From positions 1 to 33,071 of the IMG/VR virus record IMGVR_UViG_3300029309_000169: a stretch of DNA of 33,071 nt. One strand, 5' to 3'. A program made the position numbers and the translations under genes. Positions 898 through 33,071 of this stretch are shown here, one piece after another. Source of the stretch: a virus. Under the pieces are notes generated by a model. It was given only the letters and a program-made list of their open reading frames with translations, made no database searches and was not told the origin of the DNA. Every line of letters starts with the position of its first letter. The stretch's first letter is position 1.

Positions 898-1045
898 AAT
901 ACTATCTGATGATTCTATAAATGTTTTAGAATCTGATTTTAATGGAGAAGAATTTATAAAAATAACAAGAGAAAACAATAAACTTATATTGTTAGTTGAT
1001 GCACCAGAACAGGTAGATATATACGATGGCATCTTACACGAGTAG
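881..1045 (+). CDS. Small acidic protein between two tail genes
   Basis: A 54-codon frame starts with ATG at 881, inside the last codons of the fibre gene, and ends with TAG at 1043-1045, inside the start of the next tail gene. It overlaps its neighbours by 17 and 20 bases, the tight packing seen through the late operon. The product is mostly acidic (for example [10 protein letters not shown] and [13 protein letters not shown]) with no membrane segment. A GGTGG purine stretch lies a few bases upstream. Without this gene there would be a gap of 128 bp in a region where genes otherwise overlap, which supports it being real. No family is recognised; it may be a small tail-associated or fibre assembly protein. 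Confidence 0.6.
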
Positions 1046-3461
1046 TCAAACAGGAAATTTTAGTGCTTCGAGTACATGGGGTGGTGGTGGTGTACCTAAT
1101 TCAGATGGTGATACATTTACTATTACAAATGGTCATACTGTTACAGTTGATGGCTCTATAACTGTTCCTACAAATGGGTTTGGCGATTCTAATATATACG
1201 GTGTTTTGAAAGCAGGGTCAGGCGCAGGAATATTGAGGATGGATGGTAGACTATATATAAACACAAATGGTTTGTTATGGTTACAAGATGGTGCTGAAAT
1301 ACAAATTACAGGTACAAGTGGAGAAACTCATGGAATATATATTGAGAATCAAGATGGTGCTTCTGTAATTATGGAAGGTTCTGATGGTATGCCATCAACA
1401 ACTATATCATCTACAACGAATGAATTGTCAACTTCATTACCTTTAACAAGTGCTAGTAATTTTGCGGCTGGTGAATGGATTGCAATTTATGATAACTCTA
1501 ATACACAAAATACAAATTCTGCTGTAAGATTTAGACATGAAGGTTTTTGGATACACGATGTATCAAGCAATACTGTTTATTTAAGAGAATTAGTAGGACC
1601 AGAAGATGTAACAGTTACAAGCTATAGTGGTTCAGATATTGTTGTATCTAATGCTAGAAAATTTAAAAAGAATAAACGTATTGTATTTGGTACAGGTTCA
1701 AATCTAAATGCAAAAAATATAACATCTATTAATTATTCAACAAATACAATTACTTGTGATTCATCTATATCTGGTAATCCAACAGGTGTAACTGTTTATC
1801 ATTCTGGTACAGAAAAAAGACATTCATCTGGAGAAAAAGTTCGTAAGATAGCTACTGTTACAACAGCAGTTTCTAACTCAGGAACTAATACAATAACAGT
1901 AGCAAATGCAAATATGTTTGCAAATAACGATATTATCTTTATTGAAAACAGAAGTGAGTCTGCTAGTACCTCTGATTATGGTACAAGTTTTGGTACAAGT
2001 TATTATCATTATACAGTACAAAGTGTATCTTCAAATACAATAACACTTACAGCTAATTTAGCTTATAAAGCAGTTCAAGGTGCATTAGTTACAAGAATTA
2101 CTAGACAAATAAAAGTGGGTACAACATCAACAAATGATTATGGTTATTTGTATGGAGAGTATTATAGCAGTAATTATAATAGAAAGTTAATTTTAAAAGA
2201 TGTTCACTTTGAAAACTGGGGTAGTAATAATAGTAATTTTTATCGTGGTGTTGTTGTAAGAGGTTATTACTCAACTGCAAGTTTACCAGTTACACTTGCT
2301 AATACAGTACCATCTACGAATCAAGGTGGTTGGGTAGAAGGTTTAGCAATTAAAGCAAGACAAACCACAACAAGTGACCACGGAAATTTATGGTTTTATG
2401 ATGCAAGATATATGACAGGTGTTGCTTGTATAGTTTTATATGGACATGATGGTATTGAGACATGGTACGAGCCTGGTCAAATTATGACGAATTGTATTAC
2501 AGCAGGTACAGAAGGCTTTATTTGTAGACATGAGGGTAATGTAGAACGTGGAGAATTAGCTTATTTATATCATTCAAGAGGAACTTTTGGAGCAAGAGTA
2601 ATAATACAAGATGAAGAATGTATGGGACAACATCATTGGATAATAGACGGTTGCAGATATGGTCTTGAAGCACCTCACTCAGATGGATTATTTAGAAGAT
2701 TTAAAGTATCAGGTACACGATATGGAAACTATTCTAGTGGTGGTGGTGGTATAAGAATACTTGAAGGTGAATCAAAATTTTTAAGTGCATATTCAAATCA
2801 AAATCAACAAGGTCATTATTATGCAGGTCAAATAAATAGAGGTATGGGTGTTCCTAGACATGTTGTATTTATTGAAAATGATTTTGAATATGATTCAATA
2901 AAAATGTTTGGTTTTAATGCAGTAATGACTTGGGATAGAAATGAACAGGCATGGTTCTTTGAAAGAAAAAATGATAATGATAATAATCCTGCTATTACAC
3001 AATACATTTATATTCCGTCAAACACAGAAGTTTATGTTAGTTGTAAAGTAAAATTGGTAAGTGGTTTTTCTGGGACATACCCATATCTTGATGCAAGACC
3101 ATCTACTAACTCATTGACAGAAAATATAATAAGTAACTCTGCTTTAAATACATCTGTATATGCAACAGATTGGAAAGCGGCACAATATACTTCAAGTGCG
3201 GCAAGTGATTATGAAGAAAAACAAATTACATTAACTGCTGTACCTTATCCACAATATTGGAAAATGGGAGTATATAGTAGTAATAGAAATGCATCAGAAG
3301 GTTTTTATGTAAAAGATTTTCAGTGGTCAATGGATACACCTTATCCAAATCAAGGTTTTCCTATATTTAATGCAGGAATTCTTGATCCAAACTATACACA
3401 TAATGTTGTTAAACAAGGGCATGGTGAACAAAAAATAAGATTAGGTGGTAGAATAAAATGA
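1026..3461 (+). CDS. Large tail/adhesin protein with G8-like N-terminus and beta-helix-like body
   Basis: The 811-residue product begins with a sequence (TGNFSASSTWGGGGVPNSDG, then ITNGHTVTVDG) resembling the start of G8-type beta-rich domains found in surface proteins. Repeated short Gly/Asn/Thr-rich strands with the look of a right-handed beta-helix follow. The middle part has aromatic- and His-rich strands, and the C-terminal third could be a carbohydrate-binding or receptor-binding module. No signal peptide or membrane segment is seen. It lies between the collagen-like fibre and three more tail-associated genes, so it is probably a virion adhesin or tailspike-like component. I see no unambiguous glycosidase active site. 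It ends in an ATGA overlap with the next gene, which suggests translational coupling. Confidence 0.75.
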   Translation: MASYTSSQTGNFSASSTWGGGGVPNSDGDTFTITNGHTVTVDGSITVPTNGFGDSNIYGVLKAGSGAGILRMDGRLYINTNGLLWLQDGAEIQITGTSGETHGIYIENQDGASVIMEGSDGMPSTTISSTTNELSTSLPLTSASNFAAGEWIAIYDNSNTQNTNSAVRFRHEGFWIHDVSSNTVYLRELVGPEDVTVTSYSGSDIVVSNARKFKKNKRIVFGTGSNLNAKNITSINYSTNTITCDSSISGNPTGVTVYHSGTEKRHSSGEKVRKIATVTTAVSNSGTNTITVANANMFANNDIIFIENRSESASTSDYGTSFGTSYYHYTVQSVSSNTITLTANLAYKAVQGALVTRITRQIKVGTTSTNDYGYLYGEYYSSNYNRKLILKDVHFENWGSNNSNFYRGVVVRGYYSTASLPVTLANTVPSTNQGGWVEGLAIKARQTTTSDHGNLWFYDARYMTGVACIVLYGHDGIETWYEPGQIMTNCITAGTEGFICRHEGNVERGELAYLYHSRGTFGARVIIQDEECMGQHHWIIDGCRYGLEAPHSDGLFRRFKVSGTRYGNYSSGGGGIRILEGESKFLSAYSNQNQQGHYYAGQINRGMGVPRHVVFIENDFEYDSIKMFGFNAVMTWDRNEQAWFFERKNDNDNNPAITQYIYIPSNTEVYVSCKVKLVSGFSGTYPYLDARPSTNSLTENIISNSALNTSVYATDWKAAQYTSSAASDYEEKQITLTAVPYPQYWKMGVYSSNRNASEGFYVKDFQWSMDTPYPNQGFPIFNAGILDPNYTHNVVKQGHGEQKIRLGGRIK

Positions 3462-4099
3462 ATGATGTATTAATTACTCCAGCAAGTCGTAAGATTGAGT
3501 TTAAAGATTCGAGTTCAAATATTGATGCAAAGATAGAAACAGATACATCTGGTAATTTATCTATTACTAATGCAGGTGGTGATATTGGAATAGGAAACAC
3601 AGCAACTGATTTATATATAGGTAATGGTACAGCTAATGTTGATATTATATTTGAAGCGGCTGGTGAAATACGTGGTGCTACAGGAATAAACTTAACACTA
3701 GGTCAATCAGATAGTAATGTCATTGTTAATGCGGCTAATGCTTCTCTTGATTCTTCTGGTAATCTTGATGTTTCTACTATAGTTGCAGGTCGTACTATAA
3801 ATGCACAAACAGGAACATCTTATACATTTGTTATTGGTGATAGATTAAAAATTGTTACTCTAAACAATAGTAGTCCAATTACATTGACTATTCCCCCAAA
3901 TAGTTCTGTTGCATTTGCTGTTGGCACATCTATTGACATTATACAATTAGGGTCAGGACAAGTAACAGTTGCAGGTGGCAGTGGTGTAACAGTAAATTCT
4001 ACACCAACGCTCAAACTTCGAGCGCAGTATTCTGTTGGTAGTTGTTTAAAAATTGCTACTAATCAATGGATTTTTATGGGTGATTTAGCGACTTCATAA
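3458..4099 (+). CDS. Tail-associated structural protein (beta-rich)
   Basis: This 213-residue protein begins with a stretch (LITPASRKIEFKDSSS) that recurs in marine phage tail fibre proteins. A repeated Gly-Asn-Gly-Thr beta region follows. The C-terminal half (from about residue 105, TGTSYTFVIGD, then LTIPPNSSVAFAVGTSIDI) resembles a small beta-sandwich module seen at the tips of phage fibres. The ATG overlaps the TGA of the preceding gene (ATGA), and its own TAA shares one base with the next ATG. It is probably a short fibre or baseplate-tip protein acting with the neighbouring adhesins. The family assignment comes from general resemblance only. Confidence 0.65.
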   Translation: MNDVLITPASRKIEFKDSSSNIDAKIETDTSGNLSITNAGGDIGIGNTATDLYIGNGTANVDIIFEAAGEIRGATGINLTLGQSDSNVIVNAANASLDSSGNLDVSTIVAGRTINAQTGTSYTFVIGDRLKIVTLNNSSPITLTIPPNSSVAFAVGTSIDIIQLGSGQVTVAGGSGVTVNSTPTLKLRAQYSVGSCLKIATNQWIFMGDLATS

Positions 4100-7490: not shown

Positions 7491-8012
7491 TTATAGTTCA
7501 TTGTTGCTTAGTGCTTGATTTATTTTTGTATCATCTGGTTTGATGGTTCTTCCTGTTGCTTCTCCCAGAGTAGTTTTTTTGTGTGGTGGATTGAATATTT
7601 GTTGTGTTGCTGTCTCCGCATCATCATCAACAGCTAATCCAAATATAGCAAGTAATGAATATCTTTTAGCATAGGTTATTGCACTTCCCATTGCCTGTGG
7701 ATTTCTTTCATCCTTTACTTTCAATGGACATCTAGATGTTTTTGTTTCACCACTATCAGTATGTGTAATAGTAGTAGTAACAAACTCATGTCTGTTGCCT
7801 ACAATTGTATCAACTTCAAAGTCAATCATTTGTGAGAAAGTTATATTGTGTTCCAATGCTTTACGACATGTATGTATAACAGATTCGAGTGAAGCATAAT
7901 CACTCTTAAAATGAGGATTAGTGCTATCAAGTGCTGGGTCTACATCATCTCTTGATTGAAACGTTGCAAGTGCTTTATCTAGTGTCATTGTTGTTTTAGT
8001 CTTTGTTGTCAT
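7491..8012 (-). CDS. erf: ERF family single-strand annealing protein
   Basis: The 173-residue protein carries the ERF signature: an N-terminal region with NPHFKSDYASLESV and, at about residues 110-134, GSAITYAKRYSLLAIFGLA followed by DDD. The protein would bind ssDNA left by exonuclease resection and anneal complementary strands, and it could circularise or concatenate phage DNA. The ATG at 8012 is preferred because AGAGAGGT lies just upstream; an in-frame extension to 8057 lacks this signal. It follows the YqaJ-type exonuclease by a few bases, the classic exonuclease plus annealing-protein pair analogous to lambda Exo/Beta. Confidence 0.9.
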   Translation of the reverse strand: MTTKTKTTMTLDKALATFQSRDDVDPALDSTNPHFKSDYASLESVIHTCRKALEHNITFSQMIDFEVDTIVGNRHEFVTTTITHTDSGETKTSRCPLKVKDERNPQAMGSAITYAKRYSLLAIFGLAVDDDAETATQQIFNPPHKKTTLGEATGRTIKPDDTKINQALSNNEL

Positions 8013-8028
8013 TGTGACCTCTCTATAT

Positions 8029-8817
8029 TTAGTCTTTGATTGTAATGCGTCTTCCACGTTTATTTCTTTTTACAGATATAACATCGTTGAAGACTTCTCT
8101 TTCATTATCTTGAAGACAAGATAACAAACCTAATTTAGCATCTTCATATCTCTTTGCACTATCTTGCATGTCAATATAAATTGCTGATTGTTCTGTGAAA
8201 AAATTTTCTGATGACGCGTCTCTTGCTACAAGGTCATCAATCTTTATGTCTTTAATACTTATTTCTTGTGATGCTTCAGTTTCTGGACGAGATTTATCTA
8301 CAACATGTTTCCAAAATCTCATTACCAATGTATGTAATTTATTCCAGTAAGAAGAATCAAATTCAATCTTATGATAAGCATAATTGTTTCCAACTATCAG
8401 TGACATATATCCATACTGAACATTCCACATTCTCATGTATGCTTGTATCTGTGGCATGTATGTTTGGATTACATCTTCTGTTTTTTGAAAACCACCAACA
8501 TGCTTACATTCAAGAATACTAAATTGTTCATTAGTATTTTTTCTTCTTACTAATGCATCTGCTGTACATCTGTAAGGAACACCATCTATTGTTTCAATTT
8601 GTAATGGTTGTGTGTACTCAGCATGCAAACCTGTTGTTTTGCAAAACCAATTGATATTAAATTTTTCTGTGAATGTTCCTAACTGTACTTTGAATATGTG
8701 AGATAAATCTTCTGGTTCTTTGTCACCAACTTTTATATCATACAATTCTGCCCAGTTACCATTGAGTATGGTGTATAAATCAGAGCCACCAATAAAACCC
8801 TTTCTATTTTGTGTCAT
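8029..8817 (-). CDS. YqaJ-type viral recombinase exonuclease
   Basis: The 262-residue protein matches the YqaJ/lambda-exonuclease group of PD-(D/E)XK nucleases. It has FIGGSD near residue 8, a LGTFTE segment with Glu51, Asp87 in CTADALV, Glu103-x-Lys105 in ILECKH, and Gln123 in the MPQIQAYM helix typical of YqaJ proteins. It should degrade one strand of linear dsDNA to expose single strands for the ERF protein encoded next. The start at 8817 has an AAAGGA site upstream; a longer frame to 8889 overlaps the preceding gene and lacks one. The C-terminal about 90 residues are charged and poorly conserved in appearance. Confidence 0.88.
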   Translation of the reverse strand: MTQNRKGFIGGSDLYTILNGNWAELYDIKVGDKEPEDLSHIFKVQLGTFTEKFNINWFCKTTGLHAEYTQPLQIETIDGVPYRCTADALVRRKNTNEQFSILECKHVGGFQKTEDVIQTYMPQIQAYMRMWNVQYGYMSLIVGNNYAYHKIEFDSSYWNKLHTLVMRFWKHVVDKSRPETEASQEISIKDIKIDDLVARDASSENFFTEQSAIYIDMQDSAKRYEDAKLGLLSCLQDNEREVFNDVISVKRNKRGRRITIKD

Positions 8818-8842
8818 TGTTTTGTCCTTTCTTAACAACACG

Positions 8843-9415
8843 TTAACATGTTTTGATTCTATTTGCAATGCATTTATGCAGTGCTTCATACAATAATTTT
8901 CTTGGTTTCAGTTTCCAATCCATATGTTCACAAAACTCAGCAAAGGATGGAAAGAATCTGCATTGTCTTTCTACTGTCTGTATTCCTTCGAGAGTAATAT
9001 CAGCAGGAAAGTTTTCATTTATCTTTCTTGCTAATGCTTTTATTTTTGCTGTTATAAGTTTGGGGTCTGCGTCTTTTGATAGTGTTATCAACAATAACAT
9101 ATCTTTCAGCCTTTGCTCAATTATTGGGGTTGGCAAAGGCTGAAGAGAAATCATTACAGCTTTCATTGCTTTCTCTAGATTTTCGATGGGAATAGTATCT
9201 GGACCACTATTGTAAGACATCAAATCATATTGTTTATTATAAATTGGTTTGACTCCAGTAGTTGATTCACACATATCTTCCAATGAGTTATTGCGATCTA
9301 ATGCTGTCATAGAATTGTCTGTAAGTTTTTTTACAGCATATTTTTCTTCATCATCATTTAACTGAAGACTTTGATGTATATGATTCAATGTTGTTGTTAA
9401 TTTTTTACTAACCAT
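8843..9415 (-). CDS. Hypothetical early protein, possible replication accessory
   Basis: The 190-residue protein starts at 9415 behind AGAAAGGA. It is mostly helical. The C-terminal part has an Arg/Phe motif (VERQCRFFPSFAEFCEHMDW, then KLKPRKLLYEALHK) resembling segments in uncharacterised alphaproteobacterial phage proteins near replication or recombination genes. No nuclease or ATPase motif is visible. It sits directly upstream of the YqaJ nuclease. A loader or adaptor role is possible but unsupported by any recognised domain. Its start is overlapped by a tiny upstream frame (9397-9447), so its expression may be coupled to that peptide. Confidence 0.75.
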   Translation of the reverse strand: MVSKKLTTTLNHIHQSLQLNDDEEKYAVKKLTDNSMTALDRNNSLEDMCESTTGVKPIYNKQYDLMSYNSGPDTIPIENLEKAMKAVMISLQPLPTPIIEQRLKDMLLLITLSKDADPKLITAKIKALARKINENFPADITLEGIQTVERQCRFFPSFAEFCEHMDWKLKPRKLLYEALHKCIANRIKTC

Positions 9416-9447
9416 TTTATTTCCTTTCTGATATGGTTATTGCACAT
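9397..9447 (-). CDS. Possible 16-residue leader peptide
   Basis: A 17-codon frame begins at ATG 9447 with a strong GGAGG five bases upstream and ends in TAA at 9399-9397, inside the start of the next gene. The predicted peptide is short, basic and without a known motif. Its ribosome-binding site lies in the loop of a hairpin and its ATG lies in the stem. It could be a translational coupling or leader peptide for the downstream gene, or chance. The evidence is the ribosome-binding site and position only. Confidence 0.3.
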   Translation of the reverse strand: MCNNHIRKEIKWLVKN

Positions 9448-9464
9448 GGTGTCCTCCACCATGT
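9444..9464 (-). promoter_or_regulatory. Hairpin presenting a ribosome-binding site
   Basis: An 8-bp perfect stem (ACATGGTG at 9444-9451 with CACCATGT at 9457-9464) has a 5-nt loop. Read on the minus strand, the loop and flank give GGAGG, and the downstream stem strand contains the ATG of the small leader frame. Folding would hide the start codon while leaving the purine motif in the loop, a possible translational switch. Confidence 0.4.
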
Positions 9465-9480
9465 ACAAACGTAAACAAGT

Positions 9481-9512
9481 TGGCTATCTGATTGTCATTG
9501 GTCAGATAGCCA
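9481..9512 (-). terminator. Strong hairpin at the 3' end of the nuclease gene
   Basis: An 11-bp perfect stem (TGGCTATCTGA at 9481-9491 with TCAGATAGCCA at 9502-9512) has a 10-nt loop and overlaps the stop codon of the Hjc-like gene. No real T-run follows on the minus strand, so it may be an attenuator, an RNA processing or stability element, or a weak terminator rather than a full terminator. Confidence 0.5.
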
Positions 9513-9827
9513 TTTTAAAAATAATTTACACACCTCACTTTCATGTTCTAATACTATAAAGTTTGGACCAGTCTTTTGTTTATAGACATACACATCTGCT
9601 GGTTGTTTGATATGTGTCTTTGTCAGAAATGAAAAACCATTTCCATTTGCTAAATACTTTGATTCAACTAACAAATGTTTGTCTTTCAATTCTATTCTTA
9701 TATCTGAACGTAAATCTCCACCTAAACTACCAGACATTGGTTGCCTTCGAGATTTGATACCAAACTGTTCAAAAAATTTTATCCACCACTTTTCGTGGTA
9801 CGTGCCTTTTCTGCTAGATTTTCCCAT
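9495..9827 (-). CDS. PD-(D/E)XK nuclease, Hjc-like Holliday junction resolvase
   Basis: The 110-residue protein has the short layout of archaeal-type Hjc and phage resolvases: Glu12 in GTYHEKWW, then RRQPMSGSLGGD with Asp38/Asp42, then Glu55-x-Lys57 in LLVESKY. These fit the E, D, ExK metal site of the fold. It would cut branched DNA made during recombination-based replication and packaging. The ATG at 9827 gives the usual length; a few in-frame codons extend upstream. The gene overlaps the zinc-ribbon gene by 49 bases and ends inside a strong hairpin. Confidence 0.78.
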   Translation of the reverse strand: MGKSSRKGTYHEKWWIKFFEQFGIKSRRQPMSGSLGGDLRSDIRIELKDKHLLVESKYLANGNGFSFLTKTHIKQPADVYVYKQKTGPNFIVLEHESEVCKLFLKWLSDQ

Positions 9828-9982
9828 CCGTAATAATCCCAACAATCTACACAATAAACTTTGTTACTAGCTGTTACAATAAACAGAGAACTACTCACAT
9901 TGCAGTTCATACAATCTGCTTTCCTCTCTGCTAGTATTTGTTTGCCTGATTTCTTTGATTTGTATTTCTTTTTGTAACGCAT
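9779..9982 (-). CDS. Small zinc-ribbon protein
   Basis: The 67-residue protein has a very basic N-terminus (MRYKKKYKSKKSGK) and two CxxC pairs, Cys24/Cys27 and Cys44/Cys47, spaced as in zinc ribbons. It overlaps the HTH gene upstream and the nuclease gene downstream, both on the same strand, in other frames. The ribosome-binding site is weak, so translation may depend on coupling. Small zinc-ribbon proteins in phage early operons often bind nucleic acid or host polymerase; the role here is unknown. Confidence 0.6.
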   Translation of the reverse strand: MRYKKKYKSKKSGKQILAERKADCMNCNVSSSLFIVTASNKVYCVDCWDYYGWENLAEKARTTKSGG

Positions 9983-10145
9983 TTGACCAACTCATAAAGT
10001 TCATTACATTGGGAATAGCTTGTTGCCGTTCCCATTTTGTAATGAGTGTTCTGTCACAACCAATCAAATCTGATAGTTCTTCTTGTGTAATCTTTAATTT
10101 TTTTCTTTGATTAACAAGAATTGTTATCATATCTGAGTATTGCAT
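9891..10145 (-). CDS. XRE/Cro-like HTH transcription regulator
   Basis: The 84-residue protein carries a Cro/CI-type helix-turn-helix at about residues 5-55 (KLKITQEELSDLIG, CDRTLITKWERQQAIP). This is the standard XRE pattern with a Trp-Glu-Arg recognition-helix end. It probably represses an early or late promoter. The ATG at 10145 is used here; a TTG at 10151 is also in frame. It overlaps the upstream HTH gene by about 35 bases. A palindromic operator-like site lies in the candidate early promoter at 12389-12400. Confidence 0.85.
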   Translation of the reverse strand: MQYSDMITILVNQRKKLKITQEELSDLIGCDRTLITKWERQQAIPNVMNFMSWSNALQKEIQIKEIRQTNTSREESRLYELQCE

Positions 10146-10350
10146 TTTCAATTTTCTTAGCTGTATCTAACCTCAAACTTGTTTCAGCTTTTGACCGATA
10201 GTATGTAGATGTTGGAACACCAGCTTTTTTAAAAAAGTAAAGCAATGACTGTTGTTTTGTTTGTGCTAGTTCTTCGAGTTGTTTCATATAAGAAATCATT
10301 CTAGTACAATATTGCAAAATTGCAGTCATGGCAAGATGTTTCAAGTTCAT
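10111..10350 (-). CDS. Second HTH-type regulator, coupled to a membrane microprotein
   Basis: The 79-residue product has a C-terminal half (LLYFFKKAGVPTSTYYRSKA, then TAKKIENAIL) with the form of a compact DNA-binding helix-turn-helix. Similar domains occur in small alphaproteobacterial phage regulators. I choose the ATG at 10350 because it forms an ATGA overlap with the stop of the 31-residue membrane frame. A longer frame to 10482 would overlap two other genes and lacks its own ribosome-binding site. It may act with the XRE protein in an early/late switch. Confidence 0.65.
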   Translation of the reverse strand: MNLKHLAMTAILQYCTRMISYMKQLEELAQTKQQSLLYFFKKAGVPTSTYYRSKAETSLRLDTAKKIENAILRYDNNSC

Positions 10351-10442
10351 GCTAATACAAACAACAACATCATTATCAAATACATTGTGACAAAAAATGC
10401 GGCTGTCGCTAGAAACTCTGCGAATATATGATACCATTTCAT
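10347..10442 (-). CDS. 31-residue single-pass membrane microprotein
   Basis: This 32-codon frame starts at ATG 10442, six bases after a strong AAGGAG. The ATG overlaps the TGA of the upstream gene and its own TGA overlaps the ATG of the HTH gene, so it is ATGA-coupled on both sides. The peptide is almost entirely hydrophobic from residue 6 on (FAEFLATAAFF and VTMYLIMMLL) and would span the membrane once. Possible roles include superinfection exclusion, modulation of a host membrane enzyme, or an antiholin-like function; none is shown. Confidence 0.65.
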   Translation of the reverse strand: MKWYHIFAEFLATAAFFVTMYLIMMLLFVLA

Positions 10443-10627
10443 ATCTTTCTCCTTGTAAATTGATCCCTTCGATGTTGACCATCTCTTCTTTCTAAGTTTT
10501 TAATGTTAACATTATCTTTTTTCTTTTTAGTTGGTTTGATTTTTGGGACAGAGTTTACAACTTCATCCCATGAATCCTTCAAACATTTTTTGAATTCTTC
10601 AAGTGTCATGTCTATACAATTATTCAT
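10439..10627 (-). CDS. Small hypothetical early protein
   Basis: The 62-residue product starts at ATG 10627, preceded by AAGGAGAT at good spacing; an in-frame extension to 10666 overlaps the upstream gene. It has an acidic/helical N-terminus (TLEEFKKCLKDSWDEV) and a strongly basic C-terminus (KPTKKKKDN, ERRDGQHRRDQFTRRK), suggesting RNA or DNA contact. Its stop overlaps the start of the membrane microprotein. No family is recognised. Confidence 0.7.
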   Translation of the reverse strand: MNNCIDMTLEEFKKCLKDSWDEVVNSVPKIKPTKKKKDNVNIKNLERRDGQHRRDQFTRRKI

Positions 10628-10628
10628 T

Positions 10629-10910
10629 TTAATCTCCTTGATAATTCCAAGGTCTGTCTGGTCCATCAGATTCCTGATTTGCCATTACTTCCATGTAATC
10701 ATTTTGCACACGCATACCAGCTTCAAGTTTTGACATTTGATGTGGTGAAAATTCTGAAATAATTTCTAATAAATGTTCATCTTCAAGAGGTTTAGTTTCA
10801 TTGTAATAATTTATCTTTGCAATGTATCTACCGAATTGTAAAACATTTAAGATGACTTTATCTTTACCTTCTGTTATCGTTGGTACTGGAAGTACCGAAA
10901 TGTTAGGCAT
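10629..10910 (-). CDS. Hypothetical early protein
   Basis: The 93-residue product starts at ATG 10910 with AGGAGAAAT upstream. It shows a beta-rich N-terminus (VLPVPTITEGKDKVILNVLQ) and an acidic helical C-terminus. It ends one base before the next gene's start region. No known family or catalytic motif is visible. The preceding intergenic stretch holds a perfect 15-bp inverted repeat that may control expression from here on. Confidence 0.7.
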   Translation of the reverse strand: MPNISVLPVPTITEGKDKVILNVLQFGRYIAKINYYNETKPLEDEHLLEIISEFSPHQMSKLEAGMRVQNDYMEVMANQESDGPDRPWNYQGD

Positions 10911-10930
10911 AGTATTTCTCCTATTAACTC

Positions 10931-10970
10931 TATCCCTGTTATTACTTAGGCGTTTGTAATAACAGGGATA
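10931..10970 (-). promoter_or_regulatory. Perfect 15-bp stem-loop in the early operon
   Basis: TATCCCTGTTATTAC (10931-10945) pairs exactly with 10956-10970 around a 10-nt loop. It lies in the 74-bp gap between the DUF932 gene and the 93-residue gene. No T-run follows on either strand, so a plain intrinsic terminator is unlikely. It could be an mRNA processing or stabilising hairpin, an attenuator, or a protein-binding site on DNA. Confidence 0.6.
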
Positions 10971-10984
10971 CCTTTCATTGATTG

Positions 10985-11869
10985 TTAGTTGAAAATTGGT
11001 GCAGATAATGATTGTGATACCTTCACCATGCTATTTCGCATCGTTGTGATAGGATTATCAACTCCTTCTGGATGCGATGCCCATTCTGTTATAGCATTGT
11101 ATAATGCCCAACAGTTTGAACCTAGTTCGTATTTGTTTTTGATCCATAGTTTTACCAACAGGTCTGTTTGTTTGTTGTTTACTTTGAATTGATTTGTATT
11201 GTGGTCAAAGTTGTTTGTTTTTGTGATGTATTTTTTGATGAACTCTGTTGCTTGTTCATCTGTTATTGTTTGCTGTGACCATCTCAAATACTTATCACTT
11301 GAGTTATAGAATATATCAACTGAGCTAGTGATGTGTTTTGCAACACTATCTGTATTGATATTCTTTGTGTGTTTTTGTGTCTCTCTGACAATGTTGAAGT
11401 TACCAACCATGCCATTAGAACATATCTGTCTTTTACCTTGACCAATAACTTGGAATGAATAAGAACCATCATAAGAGTTAAAGAACAATAGCTCGAATGT
11501 AATTGTATCTCTTGGAAGCGGTTCTATCTTTACGGAAGGAAATGTTACCCTGCCAAATAGCTTACCACCTTCGATGACTTCATTAGTATGTTGTGATGTT
11601 GTTGGATAAAGTTTTGTAGTTAGTACATAATCTCTTGGTAAATCAGATAACCGAACACCTTCTTCAACAGCATCAACAACTTCTTTGTGTGTTAATATTT
11701 TGTATGAAGGTGAAACAATTTGGAAGTCTTGATCTGTATCAAGTCTACTAACCCATTGGAATCTTTTGGAATCACATTGATTTGATTGAACAACTGGTCG
11801 TTTACCAACTGGAAAATCATAATGTTTATCCATGACTGTTATTGGTTTCATTGGTGCAATACTATTCAT
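10985..11869 (-). CDS. DUF932 family protein
   Basis: The 294-residue protein matches the DUF932 family found in phages and plasmids. The most telling segment is VIGQGKRQICSNGMVGN, corresponding to the family's R-x-C-x-NGM core. Around it are TFELLFFNSYDGSYSF and a C-terminal helical part with NCWALYNAITEWASH. Family members are linked to DNA metabolism or anti-restriction contexts on plasmids and phages, but the activity is not settled. The start at 11869 is set by GAAAGGA upstream; an in-frame extension to 11887 overlaps the preceding gene more deeply. It is the largest early gene. Confidence 0.85.
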   Translation of the reverse strand: MNSIAPMKPITVMDKHYDFPVGKRPVVQSNQCDSKRFQWVSRLDTDQDFQIVSPSYKILTHKEVVDAVEEGVRLSDLPRDYVLTTKLYPTTSQHTNEVIEGGKLFGRVTFPSVKIEPLPRDTITFELLFFNSYDGSYSFQVIGQGKRQICSNGMVGNFNIVRETQKHTKNINTDSVAKHITSSVDIFYNSSDKYLRWSQQTITDEQATEFIKKYITKTNNFDHNTNQFKVNNKQTDLLVKLWIKNKYELGSNCWALYNAITEWASHPEGVDNPITTMRNSMVKVSQSLSAPIFN

Positions 11870-12122
11870 TGTCTTTTCCTTTCTCAATAGTTTCGCTGTG
11901 TTCTAAGATGATATAAGTATCATGGTTTTCTATTTTACCATCAAAGAATTCTGTTGTGTTCATTTGCCAAGGTCTGTAAGTGACCACAGTATGAACAATT
12001 TTTGTCCCTTGTAAAAAATTGAAAGTTGCTTTTATTTGTTTTGGTGTAGATTCAGCAAACCCAACAATCAATTCAATCTTTGTTACATCAAGAACAATGG
12101 ATGATTTATTAAAGTTTTCCAT
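11862..12122 (-). CDS. Hypothetical early protein
   Basis: The 86-residue protein starts at ATG 12122, six bases after GGGGGT at the end of the upstream gene, and overlaps the DUF932 start by eight bases. The sequence alternates hydrophobic and polar residues (IELIVGFA, KIVHTVVTYRPW) and looks like a small beta-sheet protein with an acidic tail. No family is recognised. Tight coupling with the DUF932 gene suggests a partner role. Confidence 0.65.
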   Translation of the reverse strand: MENFNKSSIVLDVTKIELIVGFAESTPKQIKATFNFLQGTKIVHTVVTYRPWQMNTTEFFDGKIENHDTYIILEHSETIEKGKDNE

Positions 12123-12125
12123 TTG

Positions 12126-12359
12126 TTACCCCCAATTCTTTTTGTCACCAGATTCTTCATTTATGTCATAACCCAAATGGTAAGCATGAATTTCTGGTTT
12201 TGTCATGTGTTCTTCAGTAACTAACTCTGAAGTCATGGTAGCTCCTTTATAGTAATGAGGTTTCTTTGGTCTACCATAGTAACTATCCATTCCACCACGG
12301 TCATAAGGTCCACCATGTCGGATTAAATCTTTTGTGTCTAAAATATCAAAACAAGTCAT
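12126..12359 (-). CDS. Small hypothetical protein, first gene of the early operon
   Basis: The 77-residue product starts at ATG 12359 behind AAAGGAAAT; an upstream in-frame extension (to 12440) would cover the candidate promoter and is not favoured. The protein is rich in Gly, Tyr, His and Pro (HGGPYDRGGMDSYYGRPKKP). It resembles small uncharacterised phage proteins with a HGGPxDRGxxDxYYxR pattern seen in cyanophages and other marine phages. The function is unknown. As the promoter-proximal gene it is likely made very early. Confidence 0.7.
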   Translation of the reverse strand: MTCFDILDTKDLIRHGGPYDRGGMDSYYGRPKKPHYYKGATMTSELVTEEHMTKPEIHAYHLGYDINEESGDKKNWG

Positions 12360-12383
12360 TTGATTTCCTTTCTTCTTTTTATT

Positions 12384-12412
12384 ATTGTTGCATATATGCA
12401 GTAGATAGTCAA
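12384..12412 (-). promoter_or_regulatory. Candidate early promoter with palindromic operator
   Basis: On the minus strand TTGACT (12412-12407) is followed after 17 bases by AACAAT (12389-12384), or after 20 by AATAAT, a fair sigma70-type arrangement. A perfect 12-bp palindrome TGCATATATGCA (12389-12400) lies across the spacer, where a repressor would block polymerase. It lies about 25 bp upstream of the first early gene and downstream of a terminator, so a promoter is needed here. An alternative promoter (TTGAGA, 18 bases, CATAAA) lies further up at about 12472-12501. Confidence 0.5.
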
Positions 12413-12521
12413 ATATAAAATCATTTGATTTGGATGGCATATACGATTTAGAAAGTTAGTCCTTAGGAAATTTATGGGGAATCACAGAACTAACTCTCAA
12501 CATCGTACACATTGTAAGCAT

Positions 12522-12554
12522 AAGAAAAGACTCACAAGCTGTTGCCTGTGAGCC
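12522..12554 (-). terminator. Rho-independent terminator after the palindrome-arm gene
   Basis: On the minus strand GGCTCACA (12554-12547) pairs with TGTGAGTC (12536-12529), with one G-T pair, and is followed by TTTTCTT. It lies just after the stop of the 136-residue gene and before the early promoter, so that gene forms its own transcription unit. The remaining bases of this 209-bp gap (12360-12568) hold the promoter region and no convincing gene. Confidence 0.75.
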
Positions 12555-12568
12555 TTGAATAACCAGTG

Positions 12569-12979
12569 TTATGCAAACTGTTTGATGATGTCATCAACTA
12601 CTTTCGTTTGCTCGGTGTTACCATTCAATTGAGTTATTGCTTGCTGAAGGTAGTTTATCCACCAATCATCAACTTCCAACTGGTCTTTCTGCCATTGTAA
12701 ATCTTGATGCAGTTTTACCAACTCAACGTCGTCAATATTTTCACGATTGGTCTTAGCTTCAGAACACATAATCTGGATTCTATCCTCCATAGCTTTGATT
12801 CTACCTTGCTTTGAATTCTGAATAGACTCAGAATCATTCTCTTTCCCATAAGCAGTTTGTTTCGTGAACTTCAGTTGGGCTTCTAGTCGCCAGATTATTT
12901 GGGATATTTTAGACTTAGAACGACCCTCAGATTTTAGGAAATCTTGGGAAAGACCATTACGATTAGTATTACTTGACAT
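12569..12979 (-). CDS. Coiled-coil-like hypothetical protein in the left palindrome arm
   Basis: The 136-residue product starts at ATG 12979 after a strong TAGGAGGT. It is hydrophilic and predicted helical, with heptad-like charged stretches (RLEAQLKFTKQTAYGKEND, GRIKAMEDRIQIM) and a Trp-rich patch (EVDDWWINYLQQA). The N-terminal 35 residues are Ser/Asn/Lys-rich. No family is recognised. The whole frame lies in the left arm of the large palindrome; its counterpart in the right arm is broken by frameshifts. It has its own terminator. Its position beside the small terminase gene, its size and its coiled-coil look would suit a DNA-binding accessory protein, but that is speculation. Confidence 0.7.
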   Translation of the reverse strand: MSSNTNRNGLSQDFLKSEGRSKSKISQIIWRLEAQLKFTKQTAYGKENDSESIQNSKQGRIKAMEDRIQIMCSEAKTNRENIDDVELVKLHQDLQWQKDQLEVDDWWINYLQQAITQLNGNTEQTKVVDDIIKQFA

Positions 12980-12994
12980 TTGTACCTCCTATGT

Positions 12995-13126
12995 CGAACG
13001 TTATAGATATCCCTCGAAGAACACGGCTTTCGAGAGTTATCAAATCACGCATAGCGTCCTGCGTTCGCGCAGGTCGATTTGATAAGTAGCGAAAGTTGTG
13101 TTATCGATTGGGATATCTAAGGTTCG
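12995..13126. other. 132-nt nested hairpin with TTCG loop, palindrome core
   Basis: Nested stems from outside in are CGAAC/GTTCG (12995-12999, 13122-13126), AGATATCCC/GGGATATCT (13005-13013, 13110-13118), AACAC/GTGTT (13020-13024, 13098-13102), CTTTCG/CGAAAG (13027-13032, 13090-13095), TTATCAAATC/GATTTGATAA (13037-13046, 13076-13085) and CCTGCG/CGCAGG (13058-13063, 13068-13073), closing on TTCG. Small asymmetric internal loops separate the stems, as in a structured RNA. As DNA it could extrude a cruciform. It lies between divergent genes, so it could be a replication origin, a regulatory RNA, or a packaging or hairpin-end element. Confidence 0.75.
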
Positions 13127-13141
13127 AGATGGGGGGTTCGA

Positions 13142-13402
13142 ATGTCTTTAGTAATGCTTACTCGTGATGGACTTTGCCTAGGTTTGCTTAATCTGACTTG
13201 GGAGTTCTTAGTCTAAAATATCCCAAATAATCCCTTTCCCCGTTGTTTCCTCGTGAAGTTCACCGAACAAACTGATTTGGGATTATTTGGGAATGATTCT
13301 GTCTTCAGAATCATGCAAGGTATTCAAAGCTGGAGGGGAATCACTGAGATTATGTGTGAAGCTAACCAATGTGTAATATTGTCAGTTGACAGGTGAGACT
13401 GC
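13142..13402 (+). pseudogene. Degenerate inverted copy of the 136-residue gene
   Basis: From the ATG at 13142 to the small terminase start, the plus strand matches most of the first two thirds of the minus-strand gene at 12979, at roughly 70-75 percent identity by eye. There are many one- and two-base indels, and a TAA stop after 24 codons. The frame is not open, so this arm is either a decayed copy or never coded for protein. It fills the 423-bp gap 12980-13402 together with the core hairpin. An internal 14-bp inverted repeat (13221-13234 with 13279-13292) and the dyad GTGAAGTTCAC (13253-13263 region) lie within it. Confidence 0.65.
13334..13348 (+). repeat. Inverted repeat flanking the small terminase gene, left copy
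   Basis: AGGGGAATCACTGAG at 13334-13348 matches the reverse complement of 13826-13840 at 14 of 15 positions. A third, weaker direct match (GGGGAATCACAGAA) lies at 12477-12490. The two inverted copies bracket the small terminase gene, where packaging recognition sites often lie. The role is inferred. Confidence 0.5.
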
Positions 13403-13414
13403 ATGATTTACAAG
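13386..13414 (+). promoter_or_regulatory. Candidate late promoter at the small terminase start
   Basis: TTGACA (13386-13391) is followed after 17 bases by TACAAG (13409-13414). The -35 is perfect and the -10 matches four of six positions. Transcription would start near 13421, which would favour a downstream start codon (13448) for the small terminase protein. The hub needs a rightward promoter, and no better match was seen in 13068-13400. Confidence 0.35.
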
Positions 13415-13807
13415 GGGGGGATGACAGGGGGGGTTGATGATTCAGTGATGAAACTAACCAGCAAGCAGATGAAATTGGTTGATACACTCGTAGCAAACGG
13501 ATGTAGTATCAAAGAAGGTGCTAAACTTGCTGGTTATTCATCAGGTGAATCAGGGAGAGTGACAGCCAGCAAGGCTTTGCGCCTACCACATGTTCAAGCT
13601 TACATGATGCAACAGATACAGAATACCATTGGTGTAAATGCTACGATGGCAAGCGCAAAGCTAGTGCATCTTGCATCAGGAGCTAAGAGTGAGTACGTGC
13701 AACTAGAAGCGAGTAAGGATATCTTGGACAGGGCAGGATTCAAAGCTCCTGACAAGCAAATGCACTTGCATGCTGGGTCAATCTCTGTACAAATTGACTT
13801 GACATAG
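13403..13807 (+). CDS. terS: Terminase small subunit
   Basis: The 134-residue product has the expected small-terminase layout: an N-terminal helix-turn-helix (KLTSKQMKLVDTLVANGCS, then EGAKLAGYSS), a central helical region (KALRLPHVQAYMMQQIQNTI) for oligomerisation, and a short C-terminal tail. It would bind packaging DNA and stimulate the large subunit. Three starts are possible: 13403 (AGGTGAG upstream), 13421 and 13448. The first codons contain two G7 tracts. The gene's base composition is visibly more GC-rich than most of the late operon, and its first part lies in the right arm of the palindrome. It is separated from the large subunit gene by seven small genes. Confidence 0.75.
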   Translation: MIYKGGMTGGVDDSVMKLTSKQMKLVDTLVANGCSIKEGAKLAGYSSGESGRVTASKALRLPHVQAYMMQQIQNTIGVNATMASAKLVHLASGAKSEYVQLEASKDILDRAGFKAPDKQMHLHAGSISVQIDLT

Positions 13808-31006: not shown

Positions 31007-33071
31007 ATGACAGTATCAGAAGCTGATAATGATAGAAGAGTTACGTATCAACTAAGTGCAAATGTATCCCAAGGAACTTGGACTGTACCTTTTGAGTTTA
31101 ATGACCATACTGAATTATCGGTATTACTTGTAAACAATACTAATGGTAGTGCTGTATTATATAATGAAGGTACTGGGCATTTACCTTCATCTAATGTATT
31201 AGGGGGAAATGGTTCTACTGGAACAATATTACTTGCTTTAACAGGTGCAAGTGGTAGTGGTTCTACTGTTGTTATAGTAAGAGATATTCCTTTAGCTAGA
31301 ACAACAGATTTTTTAACATCTGGTCCATTTAACATAGAAAAATTAAATGAAGAATTAGACAATCTTCTGTATATGATTGCTGACAATAAAGATAGAGCAG
31401 ACAGGTCATTACATTATCCAGATAGTGATAAAGATATTTCAACAGAAATACCTAATTTACAAGATAGAGCTAACAAAGTATTAGGTTTCAGTTCTACAGG
31501 TGTACCTGTTGTTAAACCATCATTAGATGCTGTTACTGTAAATACACAAACATTGAGTGCTGGTTCAACAGCAGATACAACATATGATGCATCAACAAAT
31601 AGATTTACTTTTAAAATACCTACAGGTGCTACAGGTGTCACAGGACCAACAGGTTTATCAGGTTCTACTGGACCTACAGGACCAACAGGTCCTACTGGTC
31701 TTACAGGTGCAACTGGTCCACAAGGTCCTATAGGACCTTCAGGACCGACAGGACCTTCAGGTGGTACTGGACCTACTGGACCAGCAGGTGATACAGGTCC
31801 AGCAGGTCCTACTGGACCTACAGGACCTACTGGACCAAAAGGTGACGATGGACCTACTGGACCAACAGGACCAGATGGTCCTCAAGGTGGTACAGGTCCA
31901 ACAGGTCCAACAGGGCCAATAGGGCCAACAGGACCAGATGGACCTGCAGGAGCAGATAGTACAGTAGCAGGGCCAACAGGACCGACTGGGCCAACAGGCC
32001 CTGCAGGTCCTATTGGTCCAACAGGACCAACTGGTCCTTCTGGTGCAGATGGTAATGATGGAGCTACAGGTGGAGCAGGACCTACTGGGCCTACAGGACC
32101 AGCAGGTTCTGCAGGTCCTGCAGGACCAACTGGTCCAACAGGAGATACAGGACCAACTGGTCCAACAGGACCAAGCGGTGCTGATTCAACTGTTGCAGGA
32201 CCAACTGGTCCGACTGGTCCAACTGGACCAGCAGGACCTACAGGTCCTACAGGAGCAGATTCAAATGTAGCTGGTCCTACAGGTCCGACTGGACCAACAG
32301 GACCTGCTGGTCCAGCAGGACCGACAGGACCTACTGGCCCGACAGGACCTGCTGGTTCGAGTGGTGTAAGTAATGCTAGTGATGTAACTGGTGGCATTAG
32401 CACTGGTAAATTATTTGTTACAAATGGTTTGATTGATATAAAAAATACAGGCGATCAATCAGAACTACGATTGTATTGTGAAAGCGCAAACGCACATTAT
32501 GCTGGTATTAAAGCTCCTGCTCATGCTGATTTTAGTGGTAATATAACAAATACATTACCAACATCAAATGGAACTCTGTTAAATACAAATTCAAAAACAC
32601 AAAACTTATCTAATGTATCAGGTACTGATCCATCAGCAGGTGATTTTTTACGTTTTGGTAGCGATCAATATTTACCAACATCTTTTGTTGCTGGTACTAA
32701 TATGTCAATTACACATAATAGTAGTAATAATACATTAACATTTGCATCTTCTGGTAGTGGACCAACAGGTCCGACAGGTCCTGCTGGTCCGACAGGTCCT
32801 ACTGGACCTCAAGGAAATGAAGGTAGTGATGGAGCAACAGGACCTACAGGACCTACAGGACCAACAGGACCTGCTGGTCCTGCTGGTCCAACAGGTCCGA
32901 CAGGTCCATCTGGTGGTGGTTCTGCTATAACTATACAAGATGAAGGTAGCAATTTATCAACAGCAGCGCAGGTATTAAATTTTGTAGGTACAGGTGTTGT
33001 TGCTACTGGTAGTGGTTCAACTAAAACTATAACAATTACAAGTGGTTCTGGTCCTATTGGTCCTACTGGAC
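31007..33071 (+). CDS. Collagen-like tail fibre, N-terminal part (continues at 1-897)
   Basis: The frame opens at ATG 31007 and is still open at the window end; it continues in phase at base 1. Residues 1 to about 150 resemble the T7 gp17 N-terminal anchor: [20 protein letters not shown], then [15 protein letters not shown], and [20 protein letters not shown]. This part should dock the fibre to the tail. A 246-residue Gly-X-Y block follows (31625-32362), then a spacer, a second block (32757-32918) and the sequence repeated at the window start. The full protein is about 953 residues versus 553 in T7 gp17, the excess being mostly collagen-like. Trimeric collagen-type helices probably form a long rigid shaft. 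Confidence 0.92.
31625..32362 (+). repeat. Collagen-like Gly-X-Y block 1
   Basis: About 246 residues of Gly-X-Y, mainly Gly-Pro-Thr with Gly-Pro-Ala, Gly-Asp-Thr and occasional charged triplets. At least three interruptions of the form GAD(S)(T/N)VA occur (near 31955, 32180 and 32255). Pro is in the X position and Thr in the Y position. The repeat gives a reverse-strand Gly/Pro/Val-rich shadow frame that is not a gene. Confidence 0.92.
32757..32918 (+). repeat. Collagen-like Gly-X-Y block 2
   Basis: About 54 residues of Gly-X-Y with one charged insertion ([10 protein letters not shown]), between two non-collagen spacers. The block ends in a Gly-Gly-Gly-Ser turn before the segment [16 protein letters not shown] that precedes the terminal overlap. 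Confidence 0.9.
32972..33069. repeat. Terminal overlap, right copy (circular closure)
   Basis: This is identical to bases 1-98 and begins on a codon boundary of the fibre frame, so reading passes from 32971 to base 1 without loss of phase. The mismatch at 33070 (A) versus 99 (T) is at the third base of a Gly codon, probably a repeat-induced assembly end or population variation. Confidence 0.85.

Follow-up and report, generated by a model that had tools for sequence, protein, structure and literature searches.

Cis-antisense RNAs and the long antisense leaders of "excludons" are exemplified by lambda OOP, P22 sar, and the Listeria excludons. Hairpin RNAs derived from inverted gene duplications include the young microRNA genes of plants and animals and the hpRNAs of Drosophila. 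In the ColE1 RNA II preprimer, G-runs come after a structured RNA, and the replicon has no replication proteins of its own; T7 concatemers have hairpin ends, with palindromic DNA near packaging functions. Among phage RNAs, GOLLD and ROOL are large, structured, and apparently noncoding, with no known function, and were recognized by covariation (PMC12286853). The ICP1 RNA is an abundant phage transcript of ~800 nt that is likewise large, structured, apparently noncoding, and of unknown function (PMC7567579).

Here we describe a region that is probably a very long, imperfect RNA hairpin maintained by selection on the + strand, with a stem of ~390 bp in the window (the whole 33,071-nt stretch of IMG/VR record IMGVR_UViG_3300029309_000169). 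Its arms are an early gene on the − strand, L, and a noncoding mirror copy of that gene, apparently held complementary by selection. GOLLD, ROOL, and the ICP1 RNA are the nearest in kind, but they are unlike it in architecture. Like them, it would be a large, highly structured, apparently noncoding phage RNA, here predicted from sequence; unlike them, it would form a single long rod-like stem, its sequence is poorly conserved from one lineage to the next, and a protein gene lies antisense to its 5′ arm. The geometry also fits that of cis-antisense RNAs and excludons, in that the predicted transcript would overlap the 5′ part of the divergent gene in antisense. Here, however, a mirror copy that co-evolves with the antisense stretch pairs with it in cis, and no other antisense RNA that we know of has one. 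With microRNA and hpRNA hairpins it shares a long imperfect stem and an arm that resembles and co-evolves with a gene, but it occurs in a phage without RNA interference, and the opposite strand of the gene itself serves as one arm.

At six loci, none of the Rfam covariance models (GOLLD, ROOL, and others) reached its gathering score, and a further Rfam search gave two chance-level snoRNA hits only (E 0.19 and 0.94). We found no description of such a hairpin in the open-licence papers searched. The arrangement, as predicted from the genomes, would be new.

The palindrome at the early/late border

The window, a contig of 33 kb, comes from a marine podovirus and has a 98-bp repeat at both ends. 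Its kin is Pelagibacter phage Hodr, other marine phages being more distant. Early genes run leftward from 12979 to ~7100, and late genes run rightward, starting with the terminase small subunit gene, TerS. The early set includes an Erf-like annealing protein, a RecE-like exonuclease, a Holliday-junction-resolvase-like protein, a CII-like regulator, and a DUF932 protein; no DNA or RNA polymerase, primase, helicase, or initiator was recognized among the proteins scanned. The 98-bp repeat is exact (1-98 and 32972-33069), and many direct repeats of ~70% identity and higher GC content (41-46%) span the contig ends (31618-32920 and 65-251). An 811-aa open reading frame at 1026-3461 had no PHROG or Pfam match.

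A first-pass annotation had reported a degenerate palindrome of ~1 kb at 12556-13540, and self blastn bore this out: on the minus strand, 12597-13507 matched its own reverse complement (69.5% identity, 976 columns, E 1.3e-68), and no other inverted match within the window comes close. The small indels that had been described between the arms are present and numerous, with ungapped identity at ~84%. The 23-bp exact pair singled out earlier (12893-12915 with 13210-13232) lies inside a 29-nt block of 97% complementarity (12893-12921 with 13204-13232), and the proposed center, 13065/13066, falls within a perfect mini-hairpin at 13058-13073. Local alignment and folding carry the arms slightly past the outer limits given there, to ~12543 and ~13556. 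The annotation also had each arm including or abutting a gene start; it missed the intact 136-codon gene in the left arm (12569-12979, − strand) and the overlap of the right arm with a late-promoter-like element and TerS. The features of the region are as follows.

12527..12556, − strand: terminator-like stem 3′ of gene L (from a scan; consensus match only)
12543..13063, + strand: 5′ arm of the predicted RNA hairpin, antisense to gene L (minimum free energy [MFE] fold, self blastn)
12569..12979, − strand: gene L, the first early gene, 136 aa, predicted helical (open reading frame, aligned homologues, AlphaFold)
13058..13073, + strand: apical mini-hairpin CCTGCG-TTCG-CGCAGG at the palindrome center (sequence, fold)
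13068..13556, + strand: 3′ arm of the predicted RNA hairpin (self blastn, local alignment, MFE fold)
13386..13433, + strand: TTGACA (13386-13391), 22 nt, G7 (13414-13420), ATGACA, G7 (13427-13433) (alignment of upstream regions)
13403..13807, + strand: terminase small subunit TerS (phrog_2538, E 9e-12; open reading frame as listed, start probably 13448)

We rejected an assembly chimera or artefact because an independent contig from another metagenome (L004) carries most of the palindrome. This contig is 99.8% identical to the window across 7572-13404, a span that takes in the entire left arm, the center, and ~340 nt of the right arm.

L is a genuine protein-coding gene. It is intact inside the left arm and has homologues in many lineages (alignment A2), and AlphaFold predicted a helical coiled coil (mean pLDDT 84.1). 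The protein matched no Pfam or PHROG family and no PDB fold at E < 1e-3. L evolves fast: relatives L085 and L092 differ at 13 codons by amino acid and at 6 silently, against 2 and 5 in TerS, and the mirror arm tracks these codon changes. The 3′ arm is a noncoding mirror of L as far as ~13384, with stops interrupting all three frames in that part; beyond it the arm covers the late-promoter-like element and the first part of TerS.

The element has the form TTGTGC-GTTGACA-~24 nt-GGGGGGG-AACACAA-GGGGGGG immediately 5′ of TerS and is conserved in nearly all of L005-L084, with a spacing across relatives of TTGACA, ~24 nt, and G7-N6/7-G7. It is presumed to be the late promoter, a function that we infer, or it might be an R-loop or G-quadruplex site.

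The hairpin and its distribution among relatives

In the window, the MFE fold has a main stem of 391 bp, formed by 12543-13063 with 13068-13556. Folding of 12560-13540 gave −465.3 kcal/mol (z −32.5) for the + strand and −386.8 (z −22.6) for the − strand. The + strand had the lower folding energy in all eight lineages computed. In Hodr, by contrast, whose stem occupies 12034-12539 of OQ414635, the two strands fold equally well (−174 and −176), a point against a + strand RNA.

We gathered relatives by a TerS scan, which yielded 80 loci. Many have long self-complementary stretches directly upstream of TerS, very different in length and sequence. The earlier picture of a conserved structure at the early/late divide, outside the standard phage features, holds: arms occur at the same site in TerS relatives. 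To measure prevalence we folded the 495 nt before TerS in 53 lineages; a GU-tolerant Smith-Waterman comparison was set aside, its gap costs being too loose for short hairpins. The z score was strongly negative in nearly all lineages (−22.8 in the window, −16.9 in Hodr), against a mean of −0.6 and a minimum of −3.3 in 48 control segments. Five lineages had z scores near zero, and their stems are longer than the 495 nt folded.

Across 23 lineages the main stem ranged from 83 to 526 bp. Lineages fall into a short class, with the 5′ foot 38 to 95 nt inside the L coding region (mostly 54 to 71, with L034 alone at 171), and a long class, the window included, with the foot past the L stop codon. In most lineages the 5′ arm ends on its inner side ~65 to 86 nt before the L start, and the L mRNA presumably begins near that point. 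In many lineages the apex spans 83 to 160 nt and is often branched; where it has only a few nucleotides, the stem runs on through that region. The 3′ foot usually lies 95 to 135 nt before TerS, just ahead of the TTGACA/G7/G7 element. The window is unusual in that its stem crosses this element and reaches into TerS by ~36 codons. Aligned with this TerS-side segment, the 3′ half of L scored 283, compared with at most 121 for shuffled sequences and 127 for the corresponding segment in other lineages, which indicates that in the window the coding sequences of L and TerS, although read from opposite strands, have become complementary. At the 5′ foot, the best −10 matches were weak (3.82, against 3.45 ± 0.16 in controls), and the window scan for a promoter there gave nothing convincing.

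Several apical sequences recur. AACACGG, a variable hairpin, and GCGGGCAG occur in order in Hodr (L003, ~3675-3715), L066, L034, and L025, which are distant lineages; as a general apical motif, AACACGG...GCGGGCAG failed, since few lineages share it. The L085 clade, variable in its arms, has an apex CAAGTTAGGYWATGGGTGGTACGGACAAACTTG and a side hairpin TTTTAGTA...TACTAAAA that hardly change (alignment A1, columns ~620-655 and ~800-830); both are possible protein-binding sites. L008, L044, and L060, also distant lineages, have in common an apical hairpin CTGTTCGCTAG...GCGAACAGTAGCTT (− strand).

Upstream of TerS, L052 and L061 have flanks that are ~98.5% identical on both sides and a different L gene and hairpin between them, suggesting that the L-hairpin unit is exchanged as a cassette. 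L082 (1507-2162) combines an L gene and 5′ arm of the L067 type with a 3′ arm of the L081 type, and it seems to be a natural recombinant and thus a natural mismatch experiment. Its arms match poorly, so pairing is not strictly required everywhere.

Co-evolution of the arms

The covariation evidence comes from relatives, since the only close relative of the window that we found is 99.8% identical to it. Alignment A1 comprised twelve relatives, among which there are ten different sequences, and a single sequence supplied the structure. It contains 511 pairs, and 96.7% of its cells are paired. Compensatory double changes occurred at 75 of the 511 pairs, compared with 6 to 13 for slid pairings and 52 ± 3 for shuffles, and double-change cells numbered 239 versus 88 ± 6. 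The compensatory changes that the first-pass annotation had proposed to look for in related genomes are thus present, in excess of both sliding and shuffling controls, as a structured RNA predicts. Of the checks proposed, this one was decisive, favoring a hairpin in RNA or, less probably, in + strand single-stranded DNA. Double changes were likewise above controls in clades L081, L011, L066, L034, and L023. Between L008 and L021, 63 columns were altered in both arms (18.6 expected), 46 of them still matching; between L008 and L017 the count was 5 (0.2 expected).

The L copy in the right arm is broken, and in distant lineages each arm resembles its own partner best. Both facts would suit an ancient inverted gene duplication with one copy decaying neutrally as a pseudogene. 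We consider this extremely improbable. Neutral decay implies that the arms diverge independently, but arm similarity was 310/290 bits within a genome and 121/115 bits between genomes, changes in both arms far exceeded expectation in L008/L021, compensatory changes are frequent, and the structure is kept in nearly all lineages. The within-genome similarity and the excess of double changes led us to reject a relic.

Mutation alone could account for double changes and within-genome similarity if hairpin-templated copying (quasipalindrome mutation or gene conversion) kept the arms alike by concerted evolution. Such copying predicts no preference for G.U over A.C, but pooled single transitions were pair preserving on the + strand in 110 cases and pair breaking in 34 (p 8e-8, null 0.55), and in the L-coding 5′ arm alone the ratio was 46:14 (p 4e-4). 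Fixed mismatches also persist beside compensated pairs. Concerted evolution by mutation only therefore seems very unlikely.

Standing mismatches are similarly biased. Across the arms, 390 were of the G.U type on the + strand and 49 of the A.C type (p 5e-67), with 22:4 in the window alone. The remainder were mostly GA, UU, and GG rather than AC, CC, CU, or AA; GA, UU, and GG mismatches are tolerated in RNA helices. The G.U asymmetry of single genomes is partly compositional because G and T abound in the 3′ arm, and since a composition-normalized mismatch table did not separate RNA selection from this richness, we relied on the single-change tests.

A palindrome acting as double-stranded DNA would be under equal constraint on both strands, which does not agree with ratios of 390:49 and 110:34. 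On the strength of the strand-specific G.U bias and the compensatory changes we rejected a DNA palindrome or genome end as the selected entity, and the same observations speak against the DNA-level roles suggested in the first-pass annotation (a replication dyad, a packaging end, or a relic of hairpin-primed synthesis). The locus resembles T7 hairpin ends in placing a palindrome near packaging functions; it differs in being internal, imperfect, and selected for single-strand pairing with G.U.

A hairpin in + strand single-stranded DNA would also be expected to show strand-specific pairing, and G.T is tolerated in DNA. Terminase might cut near TerS, with the RecE-like exonuclease exposing a + strand 3′ end that the hairpin protects or primes; the genome has both this exonuclease and the Erf annealing protein, and the site adjoins TerS, where contig ends are frequent. 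Contigs started at most 261 nt upstream of TerS in 10 of the 80 loci (L013, L026, L028, L031, L041, L048, L058, L064, L070, and L078), and these clustered starts may be physical ends or assembly breaks at the hairpin. Standing G.U at ~8% of pairs and repeated G.U intermediates are, however, typical of RNA, and it is gene L, with its presumed 5′ end, that the stem follows, not a fixed cut site. We regard a DNA hairpin as unlikely, and less likely than an RNA hairpin.

Taken together, the compensatory changes and the 110:34 and 390:49 ratios argue that selection keeps a + strand hairpin, most simply an RNA, because double-stranded DNA symmetry, neutral decay, and gene conversion do not predict G.U preference with compensation.

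Possible roles of the proposed hairpin RNA

Because the stem roughly coincides with the region for which transcription from both strands would be expected, our guess at a function, tentative and rather doubtful, is an RNA of the early/late switch that uses its 3′ arm to mask its antisense to L. The + strand transcript would start at the 5′ foot, and the stem would correspond to its overlap with the L mRNA. The 3′ arm would fold the antisense-to-L stretch back in cis, and this masking would let early (L) and late (TerS-side) transcripts coexist or switch on time. Late-side transcription could then start inside or behind L without silencing it, or silencing could be made conditional.

The RNA may have other roles, as an R-loop preprimer, a 5′ stabilizer of the late mRNA, or an RNase III substrate. 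The first of these would resemble ColE1 RNA II: a transcript hybridized as an R-loop at G7-N6/7-G7 would prime replication driven by the host. Two conserved G7 runs lie right behind the TTGACA element, the site is between divergent operons, and polymerase, primase, helicase, and initiator went unrecognized among the proteins scanned. The likeness to RNA II, a structured stretch and then G-runs in a genome without recognized replication genes, goes no further than the G-runs and those unrecognized genes; no RNA I counterpart or RNase H site is evident, and the stem here has hundreds of base pairs. The G-runs may instead be promoter or ribosome-binding sequence, no observation ties the stem to replication, and GC skew is uninformative, as it shifts at the operon border anyway. 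A preprimer thus seems improbable.

It is possible, although we would not put it at even odds, that the hairpin RNA represents a new viral regulatory RNA, in which a gene and its noncoding inverted copy are locked together by pairing, acting either as a self-masked antisense at the early/late switch or as a replication-starting RNA. If so, a marine podovirus group with a cultured member, Pelagibacter phage Hodr, would spend up to 1.3 kb of a 33-kb genome on an RNA hairpin forced to stay complementary to its own fast-evolving protein gene. This would be a new arrangement of an antisense RNA and its target, and it would make testable the timing of early and late expression and the start of replication in phages without recognized transcription or replication proteins.
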